A DNA stretch of 41,064 nt, taken from a bacterium (lineage in GTDB: Bacteria > Fibrobacterota > Fibrobacteria > UBA11236). Of this stretch, positions 4,757 to 6,450 are shown piece by piece (the first letter of the stretch is position 1; each line of letters starts with the position of its first letter). Made by a program: the position numbers and the translations under genes. Under the pieces are notes generated by a model. The model was given only the letters and a program-made list of their open reading frames with translations, had not been told where the DNA came from and ran no database searches. The stretch is taken from positions 1-41,064 of the forward strand of contig OMJM01000063.1 in assembly GCA_900299345.1 (NCBI GenBank), written 5' to 3'.

Positions 4757-4843
4757 TGGTGCCCAGGGGGAGACTCGAACTCCCACAATCTTGCGATCAC
4801 AAGAACCTGAATCTTGCGTGTCTACCAATTTCACCACCTAGGC
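4757..4843 (-). tRNA. tRNA-Leu (anticodon CAG)
   Basis: On the minus strand this reads as a class II tRNA. The acceptor arm GCCTAGG pairs with CCTGGGC with one G-T wobble. The D-loop contains GAAATTGGTAGAC. The anticodon stem CAAGA/TCTTG encloses loop TTCAGGT with anticodon CAG at 4807-4809. A long variable arm and a T-arm with GTTCGAGTC follow, and the 3' CCA is encoded at 4757-4759. It reads CUG leucine codons. Confidence 0.95.
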
Positions 4844-4893: not shown

Positions 4894-5289
4894 TCACAAC
4901 CGTTCCATCAATTCCTTCACTTTTTGGCCGATTAAATCGCGGACCCTGCGGAAATCAATGGGCGCCATCAGCTTGGGATCAGGGAGGCCCCAGTCCTCAC
5001 GGATGCGACCGGTGACGAATGGGCAGGCGTCGCCACAGCCCATGGTGATCACGGCGTCATACTCGATTTTGGGAATGTCGTCGAGGGACTTCGAGGCGTG
5101 GCCCGAAAGGTCATAGCCCAACTCTTTCATGTATTCGATGGCCTTGGGATTGACCTTCCCCGAGGGTTGGGATCCGGCGCTGAAACTGTCCACCGTATTT
5201 TTACCCAGCATTTTGGCGAAGGCCTCGGCCATCTGGCTGCGATTGCTGTTCTCGATACACACGAATAGGACGGTTTTCTTCTCACGCAT
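4894..5289 (-). CDS. arsC: Arsenate reductase, low-molecular-weight phosphatase fold
   Basis: This 131-residue enzyme reduces arsenate to arsenite in the cytosol. It is of the low-molecular-weight tyrosine-phosphatase type. The P-loop C11-I-E-N-S-N-R-S follows the first strand KKTVLFVC. The redox cysteines are likely C85 and C89 in TMGCGDACP, and the general-acid loop is EDWGLPDPK. I chose the ATG at 5289 because the upstream extension lies inside the aquaporin gene, and the 8-base overlap ATGCGTGA with the aquaporin stop indicates coupling. The product, arsenite, could leave through the adjacent channel, as in the aqpS-arsC arrangement known from Sinorhizobium meliloti. The thiol partner (thioredoxin or another) cannot be read from the sequence. 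Confidence 0.9.
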   Translation of the reverse strand: MREKKTVLFVCIENSNRSQMAEAFAKMLGKNTVDSFSAGSQPSGKVNPKAIEYMKELGYDLSGHASKSLDDIPKIEYDAVITMGCGDACPFVTGRIREDWGLPDPKLMAPIDFRRVRDLIGQKVKELMERL

Positions 5290-5959
5290 GGGAGGCCTCC
5301 TGTCCTTGATCCAGCCATTTGGAAAATACCAAGGCGAGCACCCCTCCCAAAGTCTGGGCCACGACAAATCCGGGAACGTCTTGCAACCGGATTCCAGTGA
5401 ACGTATCCGTGAAAGCGCGCGCCAAAGTGACCGTCGGATTGACGAAGCAGTAGGAGGCGCTGAACCAGATGGCGGCCGTGATATAGGCGGCAATCAGCCA
5501 GGGGATTTGGTTTTTCGGCAGTGAAAACCGACGCAACACCAGCAACATGAGTCCGAATCCGCATATTGCTTCGCTGAACCACTGGGGAAATCCGGTGCGA
5601 ATGTGGCTAGAATGTTGAAGGACGGGCTGACTGAACATGGCATGCGTGGCAAAGACGCCCAGCATGGCTCCGAGAAGCTGGGCCAGAAGATATCCCGTCA
5701 GCCGCGATTTGGGCAAGCGTCCTTCCCAGGTTTCGGCAAGCGATACCAAAGGATTGAAATGCGCATCCGAGAGGGGACCGAACAGTTGGATTAAAACCAC
5801 CAGTGCCGCGCCGATGGCCAAGATATTGGTCATGAGGGCCAATGCCACATTTCCGCCGGATAGTTGCTCGCCTGTAATTCCGGAACCTACCACGGCGATG
5901 AGAAGTAGGCCCGTGCCGAGTAACTCCCCGGCATAGGCCTGCAATGCATTATGCCTCAT
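5282..5959 (-). CDS. aqpS: Aquaglyceroporin of the arsenic operon (AqpS-like)
   Basis: This 225-residue inner-membrane channel of the MIP family has about six hydrophobic segments. The two pore signatures deviate from NPA: NPL at residues 69-71 (DAHFNPLVSLAETW) and NPT at 174-176 (CFVNPTVTLARAFTD). Relaxed motifs of this kind are common in the AqpZ/AqpS-like branch. It lies between arsR and arsC, so export of arsenite down its gradient is the likely role. Its ATG overlaps the TGA of the upstream micro-ORF in an ATGA tetranucleotide, and its own stop overlaps arsC. No ArsB or Acr3 pump is present in the window, so the channel may be the only local exit. Confidence 0.88.
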   Translation of the reverse strand: MRHNALQAYAGELLGTGLLLIAVVGSGITGEQLSGGNVALALMTNILAIGAALVVLIQLFGPLSDAHFNPLVSLAETWEGRLPKSRLTGYLLAQLLGAMLGVFATHAMFSQPVLQHSSHIRTGFPQWFSEAICGFGLMLLVLRRFSLPKNQIPWLIAAYITAAIWFSASYCFVNPTVTLARAFTDTFTGIRLQDVPGFVVAQTLGGVLALVFSKWLDQGQEASHA

Positions 5960-6051
5960 GCGCAGCAGTTTGATGTGCCGCAGCAGCTGGATTGCGTTTC
6001 AGATTTCCAACAGCAGCGAATGCAGCGCAGTAGACGGTTGAGGAATTTCAT
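5956..6051 (-). CDS. 31-residue cysteine-rich micro-ORF in the ars operon
   Basis: This very short reading frame lies between arsR and the aquaporin. It has a strong ribosome-binding site (AAAAGGAG, 6 bases before the ATG at 6051), and its TGA overlaps the aquaporin ATG (ATGA). The product begins MKFLNRLLRC and has seven cysteines in 31 residues: C10, C13, C14, C23, C24, C29 and C30, with three vicinal CC pairs. The N-terminal FLNRLLR is amphipathic. Vicinal cysteines bind As(III) in proteins such as ArsD, so an arsenite-binding or chaperone peptide is a reasonable guess. I recognise no family. The ribosome site and overlap argue against chance, but translation is not proven. It might also act mainly as a leader that couples translation. 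Confidence 0.65.
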   Translation of the reverse strand: MKFLNRLLRCIRCCWKSETQSSCCGTSNCCA

Positions 6052-6076
6052 GGGTTCTCCTTTTGGGTTTTGGTGT

Positions 6077-6409
6077 TCAACAACATTTGGAAAGATCCTG
6101 ATGCAGCCCGTCGACCAATGCGGACAAAGAGCCGCCCAGAGATGACAGGGTCTTGGCATTAACGCAGTAGCAACTCTTGGGGCCTTCCACGGTCCCGGAA
6201 ATCAGGCCGACTTGTTTCAGCGCCTTCAGGTGTTGCGAGACCGTGGATTGCGCCAACGGCAGGCCCTCCACGAGTTCACCGCAAATGCAGGTGCCACGCT
6301 TGGCCAGGGTTCGCAAAATGGCGATACGGGCTGGATGACCCAGAGCCTTGGCGGTATCGGCCAGCCGGCGATCTTCCCTGGTGAAACCTTGTTCCTTGCG
6401 TTGTGCCAT
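6077..6409 (-). CDS. arsR: ArsR-family metalloregulatory repressor
   Basis: This 110-residue winged-helix repressor probably senses arsenite. The DNA-recognition segment is around residues 52-66 ([15 protein letters not shown]). A C41-x-C43 pair (GTCICGELV) lies near the start of that region, roughly where E. coli ArsR carries its inducer-binding cysteines. More cysteines follow at C80, C82 and the terminal C109-C110. It is the first gene of the arsR/micro-ORF/aquaporin/arsC operon. Autoregulation is supported by a perfect 6+6 inverted repeat that includes the -10 region just upstream. The metal could also be antimony, but the operon content favours arsenic. Confidence 0.92.
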
Positions 6410-6415
6410 ATCCTA

Positions 6416-6433
6416 TATCGTGAATATACGATA
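6416..6433 (-). promoter_or_regulatory. Probable ArsR operator (inverted repeat)
   Basis: TATCGT (6416-6421) and ACGATA (6428-6433) form a perfect inverted repeat with a 6-base spacer. It overlaps the -10 of the arsR promoter, as expected for an autorepressor site. The repressor assignment comes from position. Confidence 0.65.
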
Positions 6434-6450
6434 AATGGAGTTTCCGTCAA
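6423..6450 (-). promoter_or_regulatory. arsR operon promoter
   Basis: On the complement, -35 TTGACG (6445-6450) and -10 TATATT (6423-6428) are 16 bases apart. The -10 is only 13 bases from the arsR ATG, so the transcript would have a leader of just a few bases. The inverted repeat covers the -10. Confidence 0.6.

Follow-up and report, generated by a model that had tools for sequence, protein, structure and literature searches.

Bacterial metallothioneins of the SmtA type are small, cysteine-rich and stress-induced proteins whose sequences are rich in CXC and CXXC motifs. The 31-residue peptide described here, encoded by an arsenic resistance (ars) operon, resembles them in these general properties, in its size and composition (7 of 31 residues are cysteines, i.e. 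the peptide is short and contains more than 15% cysteine) and in its proposed buffering role. However, its cysteines form CC pairs and its gene belongs to an ArsR regulon. Furthermore, neither this peptide nor its counterparts in other genomes have any Pfam, NCBIfam, PHROGs or PDB match in family scans, and the curated metallothionein families did not match the peptide either. The Pfam and NCBIfam scans bear out an earlier note on this DNA, which knew of no named family with such a pattern.

The metallochaperone ArsD (NF033727) is likewise encoded by ars operons and harbors vicinal cysteine pairs. Its As(III) ligands, C12-C13-C18, display a CC-x4-C spacing and those of AfArsR are C95-C96-C102 (PMC12607644). 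In the peptide studied here, C23-C24-x4-C29, a vicinal pair with a third cysteine at +5, has the ArsD spacing; the AfArsR spacing corresponds to CC-x5-C (PMC12607644). However, ArsD comprises about 100-120 residues and works with ArsA, whereas the peptide has 31 residues, does not match the ArsD domain model (NF033727), which recognizes the ArsD of a related genome (G163), and has no ArsA ATPase partner in its operon. Modules resembling CCxPGxxCC are also found in the CC tails of ArsM (NF008823) and in the C-terminal CC of ArArsR-type ArsR; for instance, CCETNSGCC of a Bacteroidota peptide compares with CCEPGSGCC of an ArsM tail (shuffle p = 0.0015). There, the module caps enzymes or repressors, whereas the microprotein consists of the module alone. 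Lastly, polycysteine leader ORFs have been described (Canestrari 2020, as cited in PMC9094748). These mycobacterial leaders are also short, cysteine-rich ORFs that precede or overlap operon genes, but they act in cis through their codons, whereas counterparts of the present peptide are found as the last or only gene of their transcript, with conserved amino acids.

According to a 2025 paper, no intracellular arsenic sequestration genes were found within ars operons (PMC12093948), and our literature search among open-licence papers returned no description of such peptides. Small thiol-rich metal binders are a known kind of protein, while an ArsR-controlled form with CC pairs, encoded in ars operons, seems to be new.

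The micro-gene and its operon

The window, i.e. the whole stretch of 41,064 nt that was analysed, carries an operon in the order arsR, microprotein gene, aqpS-like aquaporin gene and arsC (Table 1). The microprotein gene starts 25 nt after the arsR stop codon, and its own stop codon shares an ATGA (5959-5956) with the start of the aquaporin gene, which has no Shine-Dalgarno (SD) sequence of its own; in the window, an additional effect through translational coupling of the micro-ORF to aqpS is likely. The start of arsC overlaps the end of the aquaporin gene by 8 nt. The earlier note had placed at 5956-6051 a micro-gene with a strong SD, an ATGA overlap with the aquaporin and seven cysteines including three CC pairs; all of this is seen in the window, on the minus strand, which the note had left out. 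The cysteines of MKFLNRLLRCIRCCWKSETQSSCCGTSNCCA are C10, C13-C14, C23-C24 and C29-C30. In order-1 Markov copies of the window, ORFs of this class (18-70 aa, at least two CC pairs and at least 15% cysteine) are expected about 0.05 times per 41-kb strand, and chance is not expected to place one bearing an SD exactly inside an intra-operon gap of about 120 nt. The 31-aa ORF is very probably a real gene, which would be translated.

Table 1. Features of the ars operon and its surroundings in the window
Feature	Position	Strand	Remarks
arsR, ArArsR-type repressor	6077..6409	minus	family models; Cys41, Cys80, Cys82; C-terminal CC
31-aa Cys-rich microprotein gene	5956..6051	minus	MKFLNRLLRCIRCCWKSETQSSCCGTSNCCA; ATG at 6051, TGA at 5958-5956
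aqpS-like aquaporin, MIP family (PF00230)	5282..5959	minus	family models; start overlaps microprotein stop
arsC, LMW-PTPase-type arsenate reductase	4894..5289	minus	family models
Shine-Dalgarno core AAAAGGAGA	about 6056..6064	minus	~5 nt 5' of microprotein ATG
ArsR operator ATCGTGAATATACGAT	6417..6432	.	1 mismatch to ATCGTANNNNTACGAT; ArArsR footprint core
sigma-70-like promoter TTGACG-16-TATATT	6423..6450	minus	overlaps operator; upstream of arsR
tRNA-Leu (CAG)	4757..4843	minus	just 3' of arsC

In ArArsR from Arsenicibacter rosenii, Cys41, Cys80 and Cys82 are the three As(III) ligands and the footprint is TTTTATCGTAATATTGCGATCACAATC (PMC11868830). These cysteines are invariant in the ArsR alignment of the family, window ArsR included, and the core of this footprint (PMC11868830) is identical to the core of the operators seen here. 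The window ArsR therefore combines both features of the ArArsR type, i.e. the three cysteines and an operator of the ATCGTA..CGAT type. The exact operator ATCGTANNNNTACGAT occurs 13 times in nine of the ten genomes of the family, every time at an ars locus, and the reversed control pattern gave no match in these ten genomes. Elsewhere in the phylum, which judging from the relatives is probably Fibrobacterota, it is found about 0.14 times per genome (158 genomes); since these sites mostly have GC-rich spacers and are not adjoined by any ars-type CC micro-ORF, they were taken as background. The promoter-like site is seen once for 1.2 expected by chance, its position being its main support.

Residues 4 to 13 of the peptide are predicted to form a helix with a hydrophobic moment of 0.80 (shuffle p = 0.001), the structure model being a single-sequence one of modest confidence (mean pLDDT 76). 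Given this high hydrophobic moment, the N-terminus may lie on the membrane, a property not strongly shared by its counterpart in the congeneric genome G162. Judging from their spacing, the cysteines (C23-C24-x4-C29-C30, C10 and C13-C14) would suffice for one or two three-thiolate sites able to bind As(III). Since peptides with cysteine pairs also bind Cd, Zn, Hg and Cu, only the regulation and position of the gene point to arsenite in particular.

Counterparts in the family and in other ars loci

In G162, which belongs to the same genus, the slot between arsR and aqpS encodes a 31-aa peptide, MKSLFSWLKSRATKNETACCAPSTNKTCCGI, with two CC pairs and a modest similarity to the window peptide (shuffle p = 0.03). 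Another congener, G161, encodes a 27-aa Cys-rich peptide, MKPIQSLWNRLTACNCGSGCGCGGGCC, upstream of arsR. The latter forms a unit with an exact ArsR operator, an SD, the ORF and a terminator hairpin with a T tract (dG -27.9, z -4.3), arsR having a separate operator with one mismatch; the operator of this counterpart supports the proposed ArsR control. In the sister genus, the arsR-aqpS slot encodes proteins of 89 aa (G159) and 61 aa (G157) that contain CCGPDCC or CCLPECC as well as additional Cys groups. At the arsR-aqpS junctions L004/L045 and L010/L044, the 89-aa and 61-aa proteins, unnamed longer cousins, display CCxPxCC together with CGC..CC and CRCACC.

Two genomes of the family, G163 and G155, have no standalone CC peptide. 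In G155, a 310-aa ArsM is encoded directly behind an ArsR operator and carries an N-terminal MKFFEKQKEGACCEPGCC module beyond the ArsM profile; a comparable N-terminal extension, MKIFGIDIGEKKSQASGACCGPDYC, is found in the ArsM of G156. The ArsM proteins encoded at L038 (472-1404) and L020 (1841 onward) show an N-terminal extension of about 40 residues, MK[FI]F...CC.P..C, outside the ArsM profile. G163 encodes an ArsD (NF033727 match at 9e-39), followed by an ArsA-like gene, and the C-terminal SGCCSGSSCC of this ArsD lies beyond the NCBIfam ArsD core.

Searches for Acr3 and ArsB, positive in control genomes, gave no match in any of the ten family genomes. ArsM was found above the cut-off in G155, G156, G157 and G160 and is frame-split in G158, where arsM (L047, 3607-4357) is either a decaying gene or the result of an assembly error. 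The window genome has no ArsM above the cut-off. Five genomes have no ArsM (G000, G161, G162, G163 and G159); in this small sample, four possess a standalone CC peptide and the fifth, G163, has the ArsD mentioned above.

The family counterparts are strongly divergent, with lengths of 27-89 aa and poor sequence conservation even within the genus, and pairwise similarity among the pieces is weak to moderate (shuffle p from 0.0005 to 0.06). Because of this divergence, descent from one ancestor is not claimed for all of them. Judging from these comparisons, the pieces have an architecture in common, common ancestry being likely for some pairs and repeated independent origin possible. The earlier note had made its proposal depend on related operons keeping the frame or the CC pairs, and positional counterparts do retain CC pairs.

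Furthermore, a scan with an ArsR alignment yielded 80 arsR loci, mainly from Bacteroidota and Ignavibacteria. In these loci, 10 CC-rich short ORFs follow arsR on its strand at a distance of up to 2 kb, against two elsewhere in five times more sequence and a Markov expectation of 0.07. About seven of them are separate ORFs, while no fewer than two are tails of ArsM read from internal ATGs; L087, L088 and L062 were rejected as separate peptides, being ArsM or ArsR C-termini that start at internal ATGs. Five ORFs, e.g. MNTNQKDPGCCETNSGCCGLTDWGCC and MNTSIKKDPTCCDSDSGCCTITDWGCC, belong to one unnamed family of 26-31 aa (KDPxCCx5CCx6CC) from Bacteroidota ars operons. Besides the seed, a profile search revealed new members in G210, G755, G791 and G803, all of them adjoining ars genes (arsR and/or arsM). 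In G210 (L139), which belongs to a phylum other than that of the window, the order is arsR, microprotein gene, a further ORF, aquaporin and arsC. Most Bacteroidota copies have arsM or arsC as a neighbor and no channel gene next to them.

Pairwise pN/pS values among KDPxCC members range from 0.20 to 0.63, their Cys codons alternate between TGT and TGC, and KDP and TDWG residues are conserved besides the cysteines; as read from these substitutions, the family is under purifying selection. A hairpin or terminator lies 3' of every member, directly after the stop codon in the Bacteroidota copies, and at L142 the peptide gene is the last of its operon, its neighbor being on the opposite strand. The window peptide falls outside this family, defined by KDP...CCx5CCx6CC and a DWG-like core: it has three CC pairs without the KDP/TDWG core, and no common ancestry is claimed. 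Among 396 evenly sampled Bacteroidota genomes, only two KDPxCC matches were obtained, one of them the seed; hence, this is a narrow family and not one that characterizes Bacteroidota in general. A tblastn search of the peptides in plasmids gave nothing significant, and a weak match in Adhaeribacter (E = 7), located inside an ArsM gene, was discarded.

Locus L126 encodes a 34-aa peptide that has three CC pairs and a hydrophobic stretch at its N-terminus. Its ORF lies 55 nt after an operator of its own, ATCGTAATATTACGAT, and occupies the slot that in many relatives holds arsM, preceded by a second operator. In many Bacteroidota ars loci (L076, L077, L084, L102, L110, L119, L123 and L126), a second ArsR-operator-like site is located some 330-350 nt past the start of arsR and ahead of arsM or a small unknown gene. 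Since this site comes right after arsR, what lies downstream may have an induction of its own.

Proposed role and alternatives

The best explanation, which we regard as probable, is that the peptide is induced by arsenite and buffers As(III) through its CC pairs, by which it would protect thiols while As(III) leaks out via AqpS. The 31-aa peptide would be intracellular, ArsR-controlled and As(III)-binding. Reduction of arsenate by ArsC would raise free As(III) and release ArsR from its operator, and the peptide would then be co-produced with AqpS and ArsC. Its short N-terminal amphipathic helix may sit on the inner face of the membrane, while C13-C14, C23-C24, C29-C30 and C10 in a flexible tail would offer three-thiolate As(III) sites, e.g. 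C23-C24-x4-C29. It would thus be a small metallothionein-like buffer holding As(III) during drainage through AqpS. Since this passive channel is the only exit route found, lowering free As(III) is the simplest role.

The earlier note had suggested two roles, of which buffering fits the evidence and the hand-off of As(III) to the channel lacks specific support. That the peptide is a chaperone delivering As(III) to AqpS, as ArsD does to ArsA, is unlikely. Its gene adjoins the channel gene with an ATGA coupling, the amphipathic N-terminus could put it at the membrane and the gene order is kept in another phylum (G210, L139). However, a passive AqpS-type channel works without a donor, the G161 copy stands apart as a unit of its own and a channel gene does not adjoin most of the Bacteroidota copies; counterparts in operons without a neighboring channel are those of G161, L060, L068 and L126.

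It is quite unlikely that the ORF is a cis-acting leader, whose Cys codons would halt ribosomes once arsenite has lowered the cysteine supply and thereby tune aqpS, or a mere device for translational coupling. A cysteine-codon attenuator fails for G161 and L142, since the peptide gene is monocistronic or last in the operon: the G161 ORF lies between an operator and a terminator of its own, arsR, which comes next, likewise having a separate operator, while the gene following the L142 ORF is on the opposite strand. The conservation of KDP and TDWG residues besides the cysteines, at the pN/pS values given above, also argues against it. On the other side stand the position of the ORF upstream of aqpS in the window, where a cis effect may occur, the ATGA overlap with a gene devoid of SD, the terminators just 3' of the stop in Bacteroidota copies and the precedent of the mycobacterial polycysteine attenuators, as referred to in PMC9094748.

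A role as thiol donor or partner of ArsC or ArsM, in which the peptide would reduce the ArsC disulfide or present As(III) to the next enzyme without storing it, would be in keeping with the CC modules fused to ArsM termini and with the presence of ArsC in the operon. It is nevertheless very unlikely: the CXXC of thioredoxin-like donors is missing in most counterparts (the window peptide has only C10-I-R-C13), and counterparts also occur in ars loci without arsM and in no fixed order next to arsC. A general buffer of soft metals or methylarsenite, not specific to inorganic As(III), is highly improbable. CC pairs bind many soft metals, two thiols are enough for MAs(III), and ArArsR-type repressors also respond to MAs(III) (PMC11868830), but every placed KDPxCC member lies in an ars locus and the window genome has no above-cut-off ArsM to make MAs(III). 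Lastly, although the ORF is very short and poorly conserved within the genus, the probability that it arose by chance and has no function is negligible given its SD, its overlap, its same-slot counterparts and the enrichment downstream of arsR, in agreement with the micro-gene that the earlier note saw in the ars operon.

The earlier note considered a single operon; the pattern is wider, with standalone peptides in two phyla and CC modules attached to ArsM and ArsD. The recurrence of tiny paired-Cys proteins under arsenic control in related bacteria suggests that an arsenite-binding peptide is among the products of some ars operons. We find the case evenly balanced for a portable CC-pair arsenite-binding module, consisting of free ArsR-induced microproteins (19-89 aa) and of ArsM and ArsD tails, as an overlooked buffering layer in at least two FCB-group phyla. 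If true, this module would represent the first case of a bacterial operon encoding a peptide that sequesters arsenite. Few resistance operons have been studied as well as ars operons, whose sequestration gap would be filled by short, unannotated, ArsR-controlled CC peptides. Such peptides would also account for the way in which bacteria that have no arsenite pump manage during the drainage of As(III) via a passive channel. In addition, they would be compact natural arsenic binders of use in sensors and clean-up, and would exemplify a gene class missed by standard annotation owing to its length.

At L119 (1240-1437, Segetibacter koreensis), a 65-aa ORF with four CC pairs may encode another soft-metal binding peptide; it was left out of the set since it lies upstream of arsR and of the ars operon, behind a sigma-factor-like gene. 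Moreover, the large ars island of G157 (L043, 12667-13745) carries two adjoining ArsI-like genes (glyoxalase fold) with Cys-rich N- and C-terminal tails.
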